From positions 1 to 56,076 of the IMG/VR virus record IMGVR_UViG_3300024240_000004: DNA of 56,076 nt; one strand, 5' to 3'. The notes beneath the pieces were generated by a model. That model was given only the letters and a program-made list of their open reading frames with translations, ran no database searches and had not been told where the DNA came from. A program made the translations under genes and the position numbers. Below, piece after piece: positions 1 to 51,258 of the stretch; the stretch's first letter is position 1; each line of letters opens with the position of its first letter. This stretch comes from a virus.

Positions 1-440
1 ACCACATCATAAGCCACATAAGCCGCAACATTAGCCGCACGAGCCGCCTTATAAGCCGCATCATAAACCACATCATAAGCCACATAAGCCGCAACATTAG
101 CCGCACGAGCCGCCTCACGAGCCGTCTTTCTATTAGCTTCGCAATCATCGGTAATAACAAGTTTAGCGGCGGCGATAGCAAGTCGCGGGCGGTTATCGTT
201 AGGATATTCGTTTTCAAAAATAGGTAATACAAGTTCGGCGACATAGACAACATATTTAATGCGGTTTATACGCTTAAGCGAATGTGCAATAAACCAATTA
301 GCGTAATCGAAGTGTCCGAGTTCGACGGCTTTACGAATGGCGTCGGAGCGTTCGAGCTCATTAAGTTTATTTTCTCTAAAAAACTTAACGCAGTCTTCAT
401 AAGCGTCAATAGATTTTAATAGTTTAATAGTTATTTTCAT
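1..440 (-). CDS. Imm-5-like Ala-rich protein, N-terminal part (continues at 56076)
   Basis: This is the 5' part of a 178-residue gene that crosses the window ends; the rest is 55980-56076. The start at 440 follows TTTGGAGGCTTAAA. The N-terminal half (MKITIKLLKSIDAYEDCVKF...) and the tail of Ala/Tyr/Arg repeats (ARAANVAAYVAYDVV) resemble the Imm-5-like putative immunity proteins common in phages. That family link is from memory; no function is proven. A 49-base perfect direct repeat (1-49 and 67-115) encodes the repeated tail. The gene follows 442-888 by one base, so it lies at the distal end of the leftward operon. Confidence 0.75.
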   Translation of the reverse strand, partial: MKITIKLLKSIDAYEDCVKFFRENKLNELERSDAIRKAVELGHFDYANWFIAHSLKRINRIKYVVYVAELVLPIFENEYPNDNRPRLAIAAAKLVITDDCEANRKTAREAARAANVAAYVAYDVVYDAAYKAARAANVAAYVAYDV

Positions 441-6477: not shown

Positions 6478-6990
6478 TTATGAATTTAATATCGCTTGGA
6501 ATATATTGTAAGCGATTTGAGGTACAATAGCGTTGCCTAAAGCCTTTATTCGCTTATTTCTGTCCAATTGTCTGGGTATCCCATAATCCACTCCACAAAG
6601 CGCGGTTGCAACTTCAAACCAGTCGCCGCTTGCACTACCTCCCCAAAATTGCTTTTCCCTCTGTCGTTCATTGTATCTTTGTAAGCAAATGCTCTCGGCG
6701 TCGGCAATATCGATATCTCCGTCGCTAATCCGTTGCCGGAATATTTGCTCAAACCTTTTCGATTGTGATTCCTGCGAACCGTTGGAGTTGGCAACAATCC
6801 ACAATCTATTGCGTTTATGCGGGGCATCGACGGCGAGAGCTGGAATAATAAACGTCTGGACTTCGTAATCTTGATTTTCCAAGTCAGCGAGAATTGACTC
6901 GAAAACCATTCCGTTTTCGATAGTAAGCAAGCCCGGAACGTTTTCAGCGACAACCCATTTTGGCTTGACTTCGGCAATAACTCTAAGCAT
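6478..6990 (-). CDS. C-terminal part of cytosine methyltransferase
   Basis: This segment holds the later motifs of a C5-methyltransferase: VVAENVPGLL (ENV motif), PHKRNRLWIVAN, and a C-terminal GNAIVPQIAYNIFQAI (motif X). The first in-frame ATG is 6990, but the frame is open back to 7059 and includes the catalytic CQPFS. A product starting at 6990 would lack the catalytic Cys. Whether this part is translated is unclear. Confidence 0.5.
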   Translation of the reverse strand: MLRVIAEVKPKWVVAENVPGLLTIENGMVFESILADLENQDYEVQTFIIPALAVDAPHKRNRLWIVANSNGSQESQSKRFEQIFRQRISDGDIDIADAESICLQRYNERQREKQFWGGSASGDWFEVATALCGVDYGIPRQLDRNKRIKALGNAIVPQIAYNIFQAILNS

Positions 6991-7130
6991 TTCTTCCCAG
7001 AGATAGCGGTCATCTTCTTTGCCTTTTCTATTCCCTGCGACGGAGAAAGGCTGGCAAGGTCATCACGGGAACCCGCCAGAAAGAACGTCAATTCTTCCTG
7101 TCCGCGGGCTCCCTTTATCACCTTTTTCAT
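6546..7130 (-). CDS. Overprinted frame across the methyltransferase, 194 aa
   Basis: An open frame of 585 bases overlaps the methyltransferase in a different register. It has its own AAGGATAATTATA before the ATG at 7130. The peptide (GLLPTPTVRR... LQPRFVEWIMGYPDNWTEI) resembles proteins I recall that arise from the second frame of phage and bacterial C5-methyltransferase genes. It may be a real overprinted gene or a conserved by-product of methyltransferase sequence. This frame is not broken by the two TGA codons. Confidence 0.45.
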   Translation of the reverse strand: MKKVIKGARGQEELTFFLAGSRDDLASLSPSQGIEKAKKMTAISGKKCLELLPKSSQNGLSLKTFRACLLSKTEWFSSQFSLTWKIKITKSRRLLFQLSPSMPRINAIDCGLLPTPTVRRNHNRKGLSKYSGNGLATEISILPTPRAFAYKDTMNDRGKSNFGEVVQAATGLKLQPRFVEWIMGYPDNWTEISE

Positions 7131-7779
7131 TATAATTATCCTTATCGTTAATAGCCTTATTATTTATATGCCATTCGTAATGGCAGTGTTGGCATAACCA
7201 AATTACGTCTAATGGCTTATCATAGTCAGAATGGTGTGCTTGGATGCCATTCCTACCATCTGAAAATGTATTTTTATTTCCGCATACACTACAAATTGTG
7301 GGGCGTTCTAATATACATTTTTTTATGGCTTTTTCTACAATATGTTGTACCCTTTTCTTCTTATCGTTAGAAGAATTGTCTCTAAAAAAATGGTTGTCAT
7401 TCTCAAATTGTAAATTACTTCTAAAAATACAACCACGGCGTTTTAATATCTTGTGCATGGCTTGTCTTGTTATACCAAAAAAATTAGCTATTTCTTCGAT
7501 AGAAAGTCCTTGCGTATATAAATTAACACAATCATCATATTTAGCCAAACGTTTCGCTCCCATAAAAACATCCCCATTTTCTATTATTTGTAAAAGGTTG
7601 TCATCTATGTCAGCATAAACGTTTTTAACGTCGCGATATTTTATAACATTTGGAAAATTCTTCTTTAATATTTTTTGACAAAAATCATCAATTTCAATTT
7701 GAAAAACATTTTCAAAACCTACCATTTGAGCGGCTAAATCAAAACCGCCAATACCGGAAAATAAAGAAGCGTGTTTCAT
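7063..7779 (-). CDS. Methyltransferase N-terminus fused to HNH endonuclease
   Basis: Residues 1-71 are the start of a C5-methyltransferase (MKHASLFSGIGGFDLAA, the SAM-binding motif I). From Met73 (7563, preceded by GGGGATGTTTTT) a familiar phage HNH protein begins: an HTH (GLSIEEIANFFGITRQAMHKILKRRG) and an HNH core (CSVCGNK... AHHSDYDKPLDVIWLCQHCHYEWH). The end (IDVLSGGFP) is methyltransferase again, then TGA TGA. The HNH is probably made from the internal start and is a homing-type insertion. Confidence 0.7.
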   Translation of the reverse strand: MKHASLFSGIGGFDLAAQMVGFENVFQIEIDDFCQKILKKNFPNVIKYRDVKNVYADIDDNLLQIIENGDVFMGAKRLAKYDDCVNLYTQGLSIEEIANFFGITRQAMHKILKRRGCIFRSNLQFENDNHFFRDNSSNDKKKRVQHIVEKAIKKCILERPTICSVCGNKNTFSDGRNGIQAHHSDYDKPLDVIWLCQHCHYEWHINNKAINDKDNYNEKGDKGSPRTGRIDVLSGGFP

Positions 7780-7868: not shown

Positions 7869-8405
7869 TTATTCAAGTCCTACTATCATAACTTCGCATT
7901 GTAATTTTTCTTTTAAATCGTAAATTTGTTGGCGAGTAATATCATCTTTAAAAATCCAATGGTAATTATTTTTAGTTTTAAAAATTACACGTGGAATATG
8001 ATTAACTGATTCGCCTTCTTTTTCAAGTAATTTTAAATAATCTGAATGATTTTTTAATTTAGGTATTTCTAAACTATAAAAATCTGCAAAAGTGAATTTT
8101 TCATAATGTTGTTTTTTGAGGAATTTTCTCAAATGTTGAAAGAAATAGTCGGAACTCCATCCGTTATTCAATGCTTCTTTAAATATCATTTCTAAAAGTG
8201 GTAATTTTAAAGTATCCTTTTTAAAAAAATCATTTGAAAAATTACTTGAAATAATATTAACGAATTTATAGAAGTCCCCGTGTTTATCTTTTAAGTCAGG
8301 ATTTAAAGAATTGCCAATATTAACTATTGCAGTACGCTTCCCCTGACCGTTCAATGTCGCTAATTGTGAGTTCAAGTCCTTTTTGATAATTAGATTTGTG
8401 GACAT
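7869..8405 (-). CDS. Hypothetical replication-region protein, 178 aa
   Basis: It overlaps the 3' end of the replication initiator by 86 bases and starts with ATG at 8405. The protein is mostly helical (FFKKDTLKLPLLEMIFKEALNNGW, FFQHLRKFLKKQHYEKF). No Walker motif is present, so it is not a DnaC-type ATPase loader. Its position right after the initiator suggests a partner in replication; that is inference only. Confidence 0.6.
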   Translation of the reverse strand: MSTNLIIKKDLNSQLATLNGQGKRTAIVNIGNSLNPDLKDKHGDFYKFVNIISSNFSNDFFKKDTLKLPLLEMIFKEALNNGWSSDYFFQHLRKFLKKQHYEKFTFADFYSLEIPKLKNHSDYLKLLEKEGESVNHIPRVIFKTKNNYHWIFKDDITRQQIYDLKEKLQCEVMIVGLE

Positions 8406-9210
8406 TCTTAAAATCTTTTTTGTTAATAAATGCTTTATATTTATTTAGATAGGAACGAATCCAAGTCGGCGAAATATTGTCGTAAAGAAAATTGTCTTTA
8501 ACTTTCATACAATTAGCAAATAGATTTGTAAAGTCTAAAATAGTTTCTGCGCTTTTCTTTTCAGGATTCTTAGATTTATATTGAGCTAATAAAGTTCCGA
8601 TTGATTTTCGCTCTTTACCTCTATCGATAATTACGAACTCCATTTCTCGAGCTTTTTCGTATTCTTTACAAAAAATTTCTAAAATTGAATCAATAAAATC
8701 CACTGCGCTTTTTTGCGCAGGGTTCTTATTCTTTTCTTTTATTTCTTTATTCTTATAAGAATTATTATAGGGTAAACTTTCTTTACTATCCGAGTAAACT
8801 TTCTTTACTATTCCGAGTAAACTTTCTTTACTATCCGTATTGATTTCGGACGGTGGGTATGAACTTTGTTCATAACGACTGCAAGTTTGATTTACAGGTA
8901 GTAAACTTTCTTTACTATCCGTAAAATTATCATCTGAATAAGAAGCGATATTCCATTTCGGAGTAGTTTTAAGACATTTTGTTTCGTCATGACGCATTAA
9001 AAGACCTTTTTCTATTAATGTATTTATCATAACAAAAATAGCTTGTCTTGAAACGTCTAATTGCTCTGCTAAGTAATCTTTTGAACAATAGCACCACCCT
9101 TCGTTTTTACTCAAATGGTTAATTATATCCAAAAGTACATATTGATTCAAGGTAATGCCTAAGCGTTGTTTAACGCTAAAATGGATGGTGGCATATTTAA
9201 CATTTTGCAT
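8320..9210 (-). CDS. Replication initiator (lambda O-like role), winged helix
   Basis: The N-terminus (residues about 10-90) is a winged helix-turn-helix: KQRLGITLNQYVLLDIINHLS then YLAEQLDVSRQAIFVMINTLIEKGLLMR, as in phage replication initiation proteins. The middle part carries the peptide DSKESL three times, encoded by DNA iterons at 8772-8921. The C-terminal part is charged and helical. It probably binds those iterons and recruits the host helicase. Start at 9210 after GGAGCCATT. Confidence 0.75.
   Translation of the reverse strand: MQNVKYATIHFSVKQRLGITLNQYVLLDIINHLSKNEGWCYCSKDYLAEQLDVSRQAIFVMINTLIEKGLLMRHDETKCLKTTPKWNIASYSDDNFTDSKESLLPVNQTCSRYEQSSYPPSEINTDSKESLLGIVKKVYSDSKESLPYNNSYKNKEIKEKNKNPAQKSAVDFIDSILEIFCKEYEKAREMEFVIIDRGKERKSIGTLLAQYKSKNPEKKSAETILDFTNLFANCMKVKDNFLYDNISPTWIRSYLNKYKAFINKKDFKNVHKSNYQKGLELTISDIERSGEAYCNS
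8772..8921. repeat. Four iterons: probable replication origin
   Basis: The 21-base unit GTAAACTTTCTTTACTATCC-G occurs at 8772-8792, 8817-8837 and 8901-8921, and a 22-base copy with one extra T at 8794-8815. Each contains a dyad GTAAA-N5-TTTAC. The first three are spaced 22-23 bases apart, two helical turns. Copy 2 is read in a different codon phase, so the DNA rather than the peptide is conserved. Iterons inside the initiator gene are known from lambda O. Confidence 0.75.
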
Positions 9211-14513: not shown

Positions 14514-14656
14514 TGCGAAGCCCAAATTCGTTTTTTAATTATATGCTTTAAATAATCGCGTTTGTGCATTTGATATTTTTTCAAATGATCAGAATTTACT
14601 TTTGAATTATTAAAAGAAAAATTCAAAAGTCTATCAAGTAATGTTAAATGTGCCAT
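14504..14656 (-). CDS. Hypothetical basic protein, 50 aa
   Basis: First gene after the strong early promoter at 14909-14940. The start at 14656 has TTGGAGCTTAAA. The sequence MAHLTLLDRLLNFSFNN... ends with a basic helix (KKYQMHKRDYLKHIIKKRI). Function unknown. Confidence 0.6.
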   Translation of the reverse strand: MAHLTLLDRLLNFSFNNSKVNSDHLKKYQMHKRDYLKHIIKKRIWASQWQ

Positions 14657-14669
14657 TTTAAGCTCCAAT

Positions 14670-14737
14670 AAAAAAAAGTTAATAATTAGTCGCTAATTCG
14701 AGGCTCGAACTCGTTAATAATCAAATTGCATTATTAA
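14670..14737 (-). promoter_or_regulatory. Leader attenuator-like hairpins before the early operon
   Basis: On the minus strand the 5' arm (14737-14730, TTAATAAT) can pair either with 14721-14714 (short hairpin) or with 14686-14679 just before a run of U (14677-14670). The choice would give readthrough or termination. A perfect 13-base palindrome TTCGAGCCTCGAA (14709-14697) lies inside. The U run leads straight into GGAG and the start at 14656. The rest of 14657-15048 is AT-rich with promoters only. Confidence 0.5.
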
Positions 14738-14908
14738 GCGCCCTTTAGCGGATTCAATTTTCAAAGTACGATTCAATTGCGTTTTTTCTTTCAATACAAA
14801 CTTACGACAAATAAAATTAATTTCCAAATTTATTTTTAAATTAATTTAAAATAATTTAAAAAAAATAAAAATAAATAAGTTTTCAATTCCCGTCTCAATT
14901 TGTTAATA

Positions 14909-14940
14909 CAAATATACGCAATTATTTAATACAATGCAAA
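14909..14940 (-). promoter_or_regulatory. Early promoter TTTG-N20-TATATTTG
   Basis: Exact match to the Bacteroidota promoter with 20-base spacing on the minus strand. Its first 17 bases (TTTGCATTGTATTAAAT) are identical to those of the promoter at 17151-17182. It should drive the leftward early operon beginning at 14656. Confidence 0.8.
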
Positions 14941-15014
14941 TAAAATTTCAATTATTTTTAATTTATTTTTAAAAATAGCAAATAATTCGCAAATAACTTT
15001 AAATAATAATTAAT

Positions 15015-15022
15015 TAAATTTG
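15015..15022 (+). promoter_or_regulatory. Candidate -7 box TAAATTTG for the lipoprotein gene
   Basis: TAAATTTG fits TAnnTTTG and lies 27 bases before the start at 15049. No TTTG is present 20 bases upstream, so the promoter is weaker or regulated. Confidence 0.4.
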
Positions 15023-15048
15023 AATAAAAATTTAAAAAGAGGTCTTAA

Positions 15049-42139: not shown

Positions 42140-42171
42140 CAAATATACACAATAAATTTGTAATTTCCAAA
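42140..42171 (-). promoter_or_regulatory. Leftward late promoter TTTG-N20-TATATTTG
   Basis: Exact boxes and spacing on the minus strand, 44 bases before the protease/scaffold start. It overlaps the rightward promoter 42157-42188 by 15 bases, so the two probably compete or are regulated together. Confidence 0.8.
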
Positions 42172-42188
42172 AATATTTCGTATATTTG
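42157..42188 (+). promoter_or_regulatory. Rightward late promoter TTTG-N20-TATATTTG
   Basis: Exact boxes with 20-base spacing, 60 bases before the NinG start at 42249. It overlaps the leftward promoter 42140-42171. Confidence 0.8.
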
Positions 42189-42248
42189 TACATTAAAAAT
42201 AGCATACGATATTTTTGATGTACTATTTTAGATATTTTTGATAAATTT

Positions 42249-42605
42249 ATGAGCAAAAAATTATTACATTCTTTAGATGGATATTTCTCAAAATTTATCA
42301 GACAGCGCGATTTAGTTAATGGTATTGCGACTTGTTTCACGTGCGGTAAAAAAGATAGTTGGCAAAATATGGATTGTGGTCATTTCATTCCACGCGGTTA
42401 TATTTATACACGTTTTAACGAAATAAATTGTCAAGTCCAATGTAAAGAATGTAATCAATTTAAGAATGGAAATTTAGAAGTCTTTGAAATGGAACTTACT
42501 GAAAAATATGGAATAGAAAAAGTAAATGAACTTAAAGATTCTAAATTTAAAATAAGAAAGTATCGCGACTTTGAACTAAAATCGTTAATTGAATATTACA
42601 AATAA
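42249..42605 (+). CDS. ninG: NinG/Rap-like recombination endonuclease, 118 aa
   Basis: The pattern DGYFSKFIRQRDLVNGIATCFTCGKK... MDCGHFIPRGYIYTRFNEINCQVQCKECNQFKNGNLEVF is that of lambda NinG (Rap): two CxxC pairs, CGHF, and an HNH-like C-x2-CN. It resolves recombination intermediates. Here it lacks the longer N-terminal part of lambda NinG. First gene of the rightward block. Confidence 0.85.
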   Translation: MSKKLLHSLDGYFSKFIRQRDLVNGIATCFTCGKKDSWQNMDCGHFIPRGYIYTRFNEINCQVQCKECNQFKNGNLEVFEMELTEKYGIEKVNELKDSKFKIRKYRDFELKSLIEYYK

Positions 42606-42607
42606 GA

Positions 42608-42639
42608 TTTGGAACTGTTAAAATTTATCCGTATTTTTG
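42608..42639 (+). promoter_or_regulatory. Promoter TTTG-N20-TATTTTTG for a noncoding transcript
   Basis: Exact match to the other promoters, starting 3 bases after the NinG stop and pointing into about 530 bases with no reading frame. Confidence 0.75.
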
Positions 42640-42682
42640 TAAAGAAATAAAAACATACGGGCGGTATGAAAAAATTTAATAA

Positions 42683-42751
42683 GAGTTTGCTTTAATCTTA
42701 AATTTTCCGCCCGATTATTTAATGATTATCTATTAAGCAAACTCTTTTTTT
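42683..42751 (+). terminator. First terminator of the noncoding transcript, interlocked with stem A
   Basis: GAGTTTGCTT (42683-42692) pairs perfectly with AAGCAAACTC (42735-42744), followed by seven T. Its 5' arm is the loop of another strong hairpin, so use of this terminator depends on RNA folding. Confidence 0.65.
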
Positions 42752-43124
42752 ATTTTAGGGATTTAGAGACTCTTTCACCTGCCGAACGCTAATAGACGTA
42801 GAGCAAACGAAACGTAACAACTGATAGCTCTAATTAGAACGAGTGCAACGTCTAACAACTTGACGACACAACAAATGCCATATATTCTCTAAAGGAATAG
42901 ACGTAAACTTAATTAGGTAAGGCGAAGGCGGCGCGAACATCAGAACTGGATTAGTATGTAATTCATATAGAATGAAGACTAAGAAAACAAAATATTAATT
43001 TAATCATTTGGAACAAATTCAAAGATTATAAGAATATGGCGGAAGTAAAAGTTGTGTTTAAAATAAATAGAATTTTAAAAGTTGTACATTTAATTGTGAA
43101 ATTAAACTCGGTATAACTTTAAAT

Positions 43125-43157
43125 AGAGTAGGGTTTTAAATACTCTACTCTTTTTTT
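43125..43157 (+). terminator. Second terminator of the noncoding transcript
   Basis: AGAGTAG (43125-43131) pairs with CTACTCT (43145-43151), followed by T7, then AAGGAG and the start at 43173. Confidence 0.75.
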
Positions 43158-43172
43158 ATAATTATAAGGAGT

Positions 43173-43457
43173 TTGATAATGCCAAAGACTAAAAAAGAAC
43201 TACGAAAAGAATTGCAGGTTTGTTTAGACGAAAAAGAAAAGTTGGAAAACTTTCTTGAAAATGTTTTGCAATTCAATACTTCGCTAAAAGAAAAGATAGA
43301 ACAAATGGAATCAGATTTTAATTTCTTAAAGTTTGAATCGGACGGTAAAATTGCTTTACTTATCGAAGTTAATAAAAAATTTCAAAAGGATATTGAGGAC
43401 TTGAAAAAAGAAAATGAAACTTTAAAAGAAAATATAAGGAATGAATTTAGTGATTAG
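43173..43457 (+). CDS. Coiled-coil protein, 94 aa
   Basis: Almost entirely a charged coiled coil (KKELRKELQVCLDEKEKLENFL...). Start after AAGGAGTTTGATA; an ATG six bases upstream of the strongest site is possible. Overlaps the next gene by 17 bases. Possibly a structural or regulatory partner of the next coiled-coil protein. Function unknown. Confidence 0.65.
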   Translation: MIMPKTKKELRKELQVCLDEKEKLENFLENVLQFNTSLKEKIEQMESDFNFLKFESDGKIALLIEVNKKFQKDIEDLKKENETLKENIRNEFSD

Positions 43458-44529: not shown

Positions 44530-44715
44530 ATGACGCGAGACGAATTAATTCAAACTAAAAGTTATTGGACGGCATTAGTCAGAGAACAACTATACAATCA
44601 TACCAAAGTGAAAGAATCAATGGTAGAGGATGTTGCTAAACAAGTTGTCGATAATTTTTTTATGTTATGTATTAAAGAACTAATAGAATTAAAAAATGAA
44701 ACTAAGCAAGATTAA
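44530..44715 (+). CDS. Hypothetical protein, 61 aa
   Basis: Helical acidic small protein (MTRDELIQTKSYWTALVREQ). Start after TTGGAGTAAATA; it overlaps the ParB-like gene by 20 bases. Function unknown. Confidence 0.6.
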   Translation: MTRDELIQTKSYWTALVREQLYNHTKVKESMVEDVAKQVVDNFFMLCIKELIELKNETKQD

Positions 44716-45316
44716 ATCTAATCCAAATAATCCAAGACTAATTAAAGACGTTAAGTTTTTAAAGTTAGTAAAGAGTATATTGACTTTTCCTGAAATGCTT
44801 ACTTTGCGTCCGATTGTCTTAGACGAATCTAATATAATCTTAGGCGGTAATATGCGATTTAAGGCATTAAAACATATCATGCCATTAGATATATCAAAAG
44901 AAATAGAATCGTTTGAATTAGAGCCTGAGCGTTCGCAATTTCTTATTAACTATTGGAATGAATTCAAAGTAAATCAAGACGTTCCATTTTTACAAGCAAA
45001 AGATTTAACAAAGGAACAAAAGAAAGAATTTATAATTAAAGATAATGTTTCGTTTGGCGAAAATGACTTTGATATATTAGCGAACGAATGGAACGAATCA
45101 GACTTGCAAGACTGGGGAATGGAATTGCCGATATTTGATACAGAACTTTTAAATGAAAAAGATTATGAGACAAAAGAACCGGATAAAAAAGATTTATCAG
45201 ATAGTTTGACAACTGAATTTGTTTTAGAAATTAGATTAGAATCGGAAATTGAACAAGAAAATTTATATAATGAAATGAATAGCAAAGGATATAAATGCCG
45301 AATTTTAACATTATAA
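44696..45316 (+). CDS. ParB-like protein, 206 aa
   Basis: N-terminal ParB fold: LSKIKSNPNNPRLIKDVKF, then LRPIVLDESNIILGGNMRFKALKHI, where GGNMRFKAL matches the ParB motif GGHxRxxAL. Phage ParB proteins of this type sit next to terminase and to DNA-modifying enzymes and may be nucleases or NTP/DNA-binding modules. The C-terminal third is an acidic domain. Overlaps the ABC-GNAT gene by 22 bases. Confidence 0.8.
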   Translation: MKLSKIKSNPNNPRLIKDVKFLKLVKSILTFPEMLTLRPIVLDESNIILGGNMRFKALKHIMPLDISKEIESFELEPERSQFLINYWNEFKVNQDVPFLQAKDLTKEQKKEFIIKDNVSFGENDFDILANEWNESDLQDWGMELPIFDTELLNEKDYETKEPDKKDLSDSLTTEFVLEIRLESEIEQENLYNEMNSKGYKCRILTL

Positions 45317-46371
45317 AAGAAATAAATCCTATAGAAACATTTAGAGTAGCAAGTATAAAAGGTACTTATGATTTACAAACTTGCAATGTTAAAGAAGTAT
45401 TTACAGGCAATTTAGATATTAACTTTGATTACAATATTGGCGTAATAGTAGGTAATAGTGGCACAGGCAAAAGTACGATAGCAAAAGAATTATTCAAGGA
45501 TTCTTATTTTAATAAAAATGAATATGTATCTGAATCTATATTAGACGATATGCCTAAAATTAAATCTATTGAAGAAATTTGTCGTATGTTTAATACCGTT
45601 GGATTCAGTTCACCTCCAAGTTGGTTAAAACCATATAATGTTTTATCTAATGGCGAAAAGATGAGAGTAGATTTGGCAAATTGTTTATTGCAAGAAAAAG
45701 AACTAATTGTATTTGATGAGTTTACAAGCGTTGTCGATAGAAATATTGCACAAATTGGAAGTTTCGCCGTACAAAAAACGATAAGAAGATTAAACAAGAA
45801 ATTTATAGCCATAAGTTGTCATTATGATATTTTAGAATGGCTCGAACCGGATTGGATTTTTAATACTAATACAATGGAATTTAAAGACGTTAGGGGGTTG
45901 CTTCGGCGTCCACAAATCCAATTTGAAATATATGAAAGTACAAACAAAAGCTTTCATTGGAAATTGTTTAGTAAGTATCATTATCTAAGTCATTCTCATA
46001 ACAATGCGGCGAAAGTATATATACTTTTTATAAATGGTTGTTTAGCAGGTTTCAGCAGTCTAATGACTTTTCCACATCCAATAGCAAAAAATATGATTAA
46101 AGAACATCGTACAGTATTATTGCCAGATTATCAAGGTTGCGGATTTGGAGCAAAATTAAGAGACATTATTGCAAATCATATTGTAAACGATGGTAAAAGA
46201 TATATTACGACAACTTCAAATCCAAGTTTAATAAAATATATGCAAAAATCAAATAATTGGATATGCACTCGCAAAGGTAGAACAATACCAAGTAAAATAT
46301 CTAAATTATCAGTTAATAAAAGTATAGCAAAAGATAGAATAACTACAAGCTGGGAATATATAAAACTTTGA
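45295..46371 (+). CDS. ABC-type ATPase fused to GNAT acyltransferase, Mom-like candidate
   Basis: Residues 1-200 are a soluble ABC ATPase: Walker A GNSGTGKST (53-61), signature LSNGEKMR (117-124), Walker B LIVFDEF (137-143), H-loop SCHYDI (H176). Residues about 205-340 are a GNAT fold: HYLSHSHNNAAKVYILFINGCLAGF and RTVLLPDYQGCGFGAKLRDIIA with the acyl-CoA-binding QGxGxG. This fusion is known in phages and its GNAT part relates to the Mu Mom DNA-modification family, as I recall. It may modify phage DNA bases. No membrane segments. Confidence 0.75.
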   Translation: MPNFNIIKEINPIETFRVASIKGTYDLQTCNVKEVFTGNLDINFDYNIGVIVGNSGTGKSTIAKELFKDSYFNKNEYVSESILDDMPKIKSIEEICRMFNTVGFSSPPSWLKPYNVLSNGEKMRVDLANCLLQEKELIVFDEFTSVVDRNIAQIGSFAVQKTIRRLNKKFIAISCHYDILEWLEPDWIFNTNTMEFKDVRGLLRRPQIQFEIYESTNKSFHWKLFSKYHYLSHSHNNAAKVYILFINGCLAGFSSLMTFPHPIAKNMIKEHRTVLLPDYQGCGFGAKLRDIIANHIVNDGKRYITTTSNPSLIKYMQKSNNWICTRKGRTIPSKISKLSVNKSIAKDRITTSWEYIKL

Positions 46372-50505: not shown

Positions 50506-51258
50506 ATGAAAAGATTTTTTGGATGGAAAGCAGACTTACCAGATCATAGGGATTTAATCTATAAACTTCAAAAAAATTTGACAATCCCTACGAAAATGGA
50601 TTTACGTTCTAAGTGTCCGCCCGTATATGATCAAGGCGAATTAGGTTCTTGTACTGCAAATGCAATTGCCGGAGCTATTGAGTTCGATCAAATCAAACAA
50701 AAGTATTTAAAACCTTTTGTACCGTCAAGACTTTTTATTTATTACAATGAAAGAGTAATTGAGAATACAGTTAAATCAGACTCTGGCGCAGAAATTAGAG
50801 ACGGCATTAAATCCGTTGTTAATCAAGGCGCGTGCTCTGAAACTACAGTCTCTTATGATATTACTAAATTTGAAATAAAACCGCCTGCAAAAGCCTATAC
50901 GGAGGCTTCAAAATATCAAGCTGTAAAATATGAAAGACTAACCGATATAAATTCTTATAAGAATTGTTTAGCGGCGGGAAATACTTTTGTATTTGGATTC
51001 TCTGTTTACGAATCTTTTGAAAGCGATGCCGTCGCTAAAACGGGTATCGTTCCAATGCCAAAGAAAACAGAAAAGTTATTAGGCGGGCACGCAGTTCAAT
51101 GCGTAGGATATGATGATACTAAAAAAGCGTTTATCGTTCGCAATTCGTGGGGAGCGAATTGGGGAGACAAAGGCTATTTTTATTTGCCATACTCTTATTT
51201 CACGTCAAGTTTAACAGATGATTTTTGGACAATTTATACGATTGAACAAGGCAATTAA
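50506..51258 (+). CDS. Papain-like (C1 family) cysteine protease
   Basis: Full papain catalytic set: Q43 and C49 in YDQGELGSCTAN, H195 in GGHAVQCVGYDD, N213 in VRNSWGANWGDKGYF. No signal peptide or long prodomain, so it would act in the cytoplasm or be packaged. Between portal and MuF genes it may process a head protein or be injected. Start after GGATTTATA. Confidence 0.85.
   Translation: MKRFFGWKADLPDHRDLIYKLQKNLTIPTKMDLRSKCPPVYDQGELGSCTANAIAGAIEFDQIKQKYLKPFVPSRLFIYYNERVIENTVKSDSGAEIRDGIKSVVNQGACSETTVSYDITKFEIKPPAKAYTEASKYQAVKYERLTDINSYKNCLAAGNTFVFGFSVYESFESDAVAKTGIVPMPKKTEKLLGGHAVQCVGYDDTKKAFIVRNSWGANWGDKGYFYLPYSYFTSSLTDDFWTIYTIEQGN

Follow-up and report, generated by a model that had tools for sequence, protein, structure and literature searches.

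The 567-nt gap that follows ninG in the window (the whole stretch of viral DNA analysed, 56,076 nt) is best divided in two: a predicted RNA of about 107 nt, and then about 380 nt whose folding is no more stable than that of shuffled sequence. The best explanation, to which we assign a probability of roughly 0.55, is that a promoter at the 3' end of ninG, P1, would drive a short untranslated RNA that stops at an intrinsic terminator, T1, the form taken in this phage by a small-RNA unit that appears to accompany short ninG genes in phages whose promoters are of Bacteroidota type. The promoter, the terminator, the conservation of position and, in relatives, a coordinated complementarity between RNA and target are demonstrable by computation.

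Promoters in the window fit the Bacteroidota sigma-ABfr consensus TTTG/TAnnTTTG (PMC7366714 and PMC6847099), with 16 sites against 3.8 expected, and from this promoter type we infer that the host of this uncultured phage belongs to the Bacteroidota-type bacteria. Searches by TerL or NinG returned no prophage relatives in GTDB genomes. The ninG gene (42249-42605, plus strand) encodes a Rap/NinG recombination endonuclease of the short-NinG type (118 aa; Pfam PF05766, E 2e-19; PHROG 5034, E 3e-29). It opens a series of plus-strand genes, in which the gap is followed by several small coiled-coil genes, one ParB-like gene, an ABC-ATPase/GNAT fusion, the terminase and the portal; the gene next to the gap (43179-43457, plus strand), for a small coiled-coil protein, is the first of those leading to terminase and portal. 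The ParB-like gene and the fusion directly behind it (44696-46371; PHROG 11143, unknown function) form a conserved pair, both members being present in close to 80 viral contigs. By eye, we also noticed a papain-like (C1-type) cysteine peptidase between the portal and a Mu-gpF-like gene (50506-51258), and a DNA-cytosine methyltransferase-like sequence, apparently split across overlapping frames and with an HNH-like stretch within it (6478-7779). The nearest phage by TerL (L163, 75% identity) has a capsid protease and a ParB-like gene back to back at its positions 8304-8540; ninG, the RNA gap and the coiled-coil genes are absent from that place, so that this phage provides no test of the gap.

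The gap itself (42606-43172) is the window's longest and contains no open reading frame over 36 aa and no tRNA, so the half-kilobase stretch lacking a reading frame that a preliminary description had reported is real. The same description held the genome to be otherwise almost gapless, which it is not, because other gaps measure 523, 415 and 327 nt. The first of these (14526-15048) likewise has no long reading frame; it carries two minus-strand Bacteroidota promoters (14797-14828 and 14909-14940), and may give rise to another short transcript. P1 (42608-42639, plus strand), of sigma-ABfr type, reads TTTG-N20-TATTTTTG, in exact agreement with the Bacteroidota consensus, as had been noted; it begins 2 nt past the ninG stop codon, the same place as the post-ninG promoter of relatives. 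When the gap was searched against Rfam, no family was found at the gathering threshold, and chance-level matches alone appeared at E up to 10. Exact pattern scans gave no match for the terminator stem, 18 for a G+C-rich 16-mer (mostly in G+C-rich contigs, with flanks unlike the window) and four for a 17-mer of hairpin B, described next, every one inside an open frame.

From the positions of promoter and terminator, the predicted RNA would extend over 42646-42751 (plus strand), the start being placed about 7 nt past the -7 element. Its first fold is hairpin B (42654-42668, plus strand; CATAC-GGGCG-GTATG, -3.4 kcal/mol), which is mutually exclusive with hairpin A (42658-42713, plus strand; -17.0 kcal/mol in prefix folds). 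Hairpin A is the 16-bp two-part hairpin of the preliminary description, recovered here as a stem of 7 bp (42658-42664/42707-42713) and 9 bp (42671-42679/42698-42706), and 17 of 1000 shuffled sequences formed a hairpin as stable. Its loop includes AAGAGTTTGCTT and does pair with a downstream arm before a run of seven T, as had been stated, with 12 of 12 positions matched to 42735-42746. That pairing is T1 (42681-42751, plus strand), with arms at 42681-42692 and 42735-42746 and a T-run at 42745-42751. A nine-codon frame (MKKFNKSLL; 42666-42695, plus strand) lies within the RNA and may encode a leader peptide or be due to chance. The whole first element is more stable than its shuffles (z -4.2); terminator-like structure is frequent in this genome's gaps, many of which reach similar z-scores through their terminators, so that the z-score by itself is unremarkable.

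Minimum-energy folds of the growing RNA suggest an order of events: hairpin B forms first, hairpin A prevails from 42713 to about 42737, and then hairpin B plus T1 take over (-25.2), T1 beating hairpin A by about 7 kcal/mol past that point. Prefix folds thus predict a mutually exclusive antiterminator (hairpin A) and terminator (T1) within a leader. Of the two options put forward earlier, a pseudoknot or a terminator switch, the second is physically possible by these folds, and we consider it the better view, a full 12-bp pseudoknot in the 18-nt loop of hairpin A being sterically unlikely. The interlocked fold as such, which by its proposers' own rule falls if related phages lack the stems, is not upheld: the stems named for it, hairpin A switch included, were not seen in relatives. 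The proposed transcript itself still stands under that rule. The longest RNA among the relatives (about 90-100 nt; locus L231, 3375-3490) has a terminator hairpin that likewise holds a second hairpin in its loop.

Past T1 the picture changes. The preliminary description took the next 400 bases to be richer in G+C than their surroundings, which applies to the T-poor stretch at 42757-42960 (41%) and fails for 42960-43140 (21.5%). The nested helices that it placed there are at chance level (z +0.6 for 42757-42965 and -0.8 for 42757-43125), the value of -2.6 for 42966-43125 reflecting a single hairpin before the second terminator, and its repeated AATAGACGTA is at the level of chance, since 18% of shuffles hold at least two repeated 10-mers. 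The G+C-richer stretch contains no open reading frame, and searches of phage records, plasmid records and the fetched viral loci found no relatives of the post-T1 sequence. A 26-codon frame (MAEVKVVFKINRILKVVHLIVKLNSV; 43036-43116, plus strand), whose start pairs with 42704-42711 (p 0.047), gave no homologue and may be a chance occurrence. The second terminator claimed for the end of the gap is present: T2 (43125-43157, plus strand) has a 10-bp stem followed by seven T. A single half-kilobase structured RNA like GOLLD or ROOL, suggested by the non-coding length and by the rise in G+C at 42757-42960, therefore strikes us as very improbable: a terminator follows the first 107 nt, the last 380 nt or so show neither excess folding stability nor relatives, and the gap differs from GOLLD and ROOL in matching no Rfam family and in its z-score of -0.8 over 42757-43125.

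The DNA downstream of ninG was listed in some 80 viral contigs, and a recurring order emerged: the end of ninG is overlapped by a promoter, after which come, in turn, a short RNA, a T-run hairpin, another promoter and a gene whose product, as in the window, is often a small coiled-coil protein. In a scripted test, an orphan promoter-to-terminator unit lacking a reading frame was present at 21 of 27 dereplicated ninG loci and at 5 of 343 other gene ends taken from the same loci (P 2e-24), an enrichment of about 50-fold, and in a second set of loci a T-run terminator followed ninG in 80 of 80. These relatives are uncultured contigs, in which the transcription starts are placed by prediction. The median RNA is 52 nt long, and terminator and start codon are usually 48-96 nt apart. 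In 36 of 38 loci the target gene carries its own -7 element, so that two distinct transcripts are expected, one for the RNA and one for the target. Where neighbours could be identified, tail fibre, portal and holin genes precede the unit, and helicase, primase, exonuclease or sigma-like genes follow it. The unit accompanies short ninG genes across contexts, at the end of the tail/holin block in relatives and at the start of the terminase operon in the window. No unit was found in the named ninG-bearing phages that were inspected (Bacteroides BS-TP2 and phages of Flavobacterium, Riemerella and Polaribacter), where the next annotated gene begins within about 25 nt. The non-coding transcript that had been predicted to begin right after ninG is thus matched by a promoter-RNA-terminator unit at a conserved position in most related phages, and the recurrence of this arrangement behind ninG in most loci examined, taken with the sequence match between RNA and following gene, suggests that these phage regulatory RNAs form a group not described before.

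In these relatives, the RNA is complementary, over helices of about 7-19 nt, to the region around the next gene's start codon, and the sequences differ between phages, as in the pairs GTGTGTTTT/AAAACACAC, GTAAGTTTT/AAAACTTAC and GTTCTGTTTATTA/TAATAAATAGAAC, where pairing is kept by different letters. Compared with shuffles, the combined P was 1e-10 by energy and 2e-9 by helix score; 12 of 27 loci fell individually below 0.05 by energy, so that pairing is not shown by every locus. In a stricter test, the RNAs and start regions were swapped among loci by permutation: the helix score of RNAs with their own start regions was 283.5, against 223.5 ± 7.7 after swapping (P 5e-5, with related loci treated as exchangeable after dereplication). 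The control in the coding region (+40..83) was null (P 0.57), and the upstream region (-70..-27) gave a weak signal (P 0.04). Because the pattern had been noticed before the first test, the second set was fetched, through a ninG alignment for which 571 relatives were reported. Its 11 new dereplicated loci, unlike those of the first set, scored 122.5 against 96.3 ± 6.4 (P 5e-5), and their controls were null (P 0.82 and 0.39). A protein-bound inverted DNA repeat would yield identical statistics; RNA pairing is the simplest reading of the matched sequences.

The gap could also be ordinary gene-end punctuation, T1 being the terminator of ninG, the promoter spurious and the remainder decayed or spacer DNA. 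The frequency of terminator-like structures in this genome's gaps would agree with this, as would the ease with which promoter-like sites arise in AT-rich genomes and the lack of structure and relatives in the middle 200 nt, but punctuation does not account for the roughly 50-fold enrichment of an empty promoter-terminator unit behind ninG in relatives, nor for RNAs there that match the start of the next gene. We regard it as distinctly unlikely.

How closely does the window resemble these loci? As in the post-ninG unit, its promoter lies directly after the ninG stop; the T-run at 42745-42751 falls within about 140 nt of that promoter, and the nine-codon frame is the only one between them. The automatic test for the unit missed the window owing to the 42-nt loop of T1. 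NinGs whose loci have the unit share 40-55% identity with that of the window; the ninG genes of phages that share the window's ParB/ABC-GNAT neighbourhood (32-37% identical) have none. We read the window as a probable mosaic that carries a short ninG along with its RNA unit. Its RNA shares no sequence with that of any relative, T1 lies 430 nt from the coiled-coil gene versus the usual 48-96, and no second exact promoter was found between the two. At 42738-42747 (plus strand), CAAACTCTTT is complementary to AAGGAGTTTG, which lies immediately ahead of the next start codon, at 43166-43175; this helix had p 0.034 versus shuffles and ranked top of 12 gene starts, two candidate targets having been examined. 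The energy of the duplex between the RNA and the next start was no better than that of shuffles (p 0.78). The window thus looks like a long, rearranged version of the unit, in which pairing to the next gene is weakly supported, and the riboregulator role that had been proposed is backed, with respect to the next operon, by the matched pairing in relatives.

In relatives, the RNA would use its 5' part to pair with the start-codon region of the following gene and presumably block its translation, which would make it a repressor that acts by base pairing and is encoded immediately ahead of its target, on the target's own strand. In the window, the RNA would be longer and its likely contact with the coiled-coil gene (43179) would be the descending arm of its own terminator; the competing hairpin may adjust how frequently transcription proceeds past T1, and the 380 nt or so beyond would be an untranslated leader or spacer that T2 brings to an end. 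Transcription, repression, its timing and a function in the window equal to that in relatives are what we infer from these sequences.

Since P1 may feed the terminase operon in the window, attenuation at T1 and T2 has to be taken seriously as a rival, though we hold it to be rather unlikely. P1 would then be the main promoter of an operon that begins with the coiled-coil genes and reaches terminase and portal, with T1 and T2 stopping most transcription until hairpin A, the leader peptide (42666-42695) or a phage antiterminator permits passage. It draws strength from the lack of another exact promoter between T1 and the coiled-coil gene, from the two terminators preceding the first gene, from the extent of the operon, and from hairpin A, which forms first and excludes most of T1. 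In relatives, however, no hairpin switch is seen, and the gene after T1 has its own promoter (36 of 38), so that T1 there does no more than end the short RNA; within the window, the upstream promoters of ninG itself (42157-42217) could read through too. Returning to the ninG-linked small RNA, we suggest more tentatively, at clearly less than even odds, that the window holds a divergent representative of a widespread, so far undescribed kind of phage regulatory RNA, one that hitchhikes with ninG and re-matches its pairing sequence to any gene that comes to lie downstream, the hairpin switch having been gained here. On this reading, the units of relatives, located between the tail/holin block and the replication block, may silence the second set of genes while the first is expressed.

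Among known systems, lambda pR'/6S RNA/tR' comprises a promoter near the end of the nin region and a short terminated RNA, a likeness that offers an analogy for the attenuated leader; it differs in that no Q-like gene was found among the subset of window proteins scanned and in that, among relatives, the post-terminator gene is served by a promoter of its own. A second analogy for that leader is the put RNA of HK022, a nascent phage RNA element governing terminators (PMC9378689). It acts on RNA polymerase to suppress termination; no such fold was found in relatives. The DonS-type cis-antisense RNAs of Bacteroides (78-128 nt) act negatively on a neighbouring gene (PMC7366714); size, phylum and the proposed negative action on an adjoining gene are comparable, but DonS is divergently encoded, whereas the RNA described here lies upstream of its target on the same strand.

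Small regulatory RNAs of Bacteroidota phages have hardly been described so far, and a literature search that largely excluded subscription papers and preprints returned neither a ninG-linked RNA nor a small RNA from such phages. The predicted RNA is a readily testable regulator, position-conserved in dozens of distinct uncultured phage lineages and matched to differing downstream genes. The closest system by action is C4 of phages P1 and P7 (Rfam C4), a small phage RNA that is encoded just upstream of its target on the same strand, is cut from a transcript shared with that target and has a conserved fold. C4 pairs around the ribosome-binding site of the target mRNA and blocks translation (PMC12197685), comparable to the pairing at the target start proposed here. 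The present RNA differs in matching neither the C4 covariance model nor any other Rfam family and in showing no C4-like conserved fold; in relatives, moreover, RNA and target each have a promoter, and a terminator separates them. The conserved unit and the start-matched RNA together suggest that ninG travels with a small RNA resembling P1 C4 antisense RNA in action, and this, if true, would be a second natural design, beside C4, for RNAs that repress the gene directly downstream.
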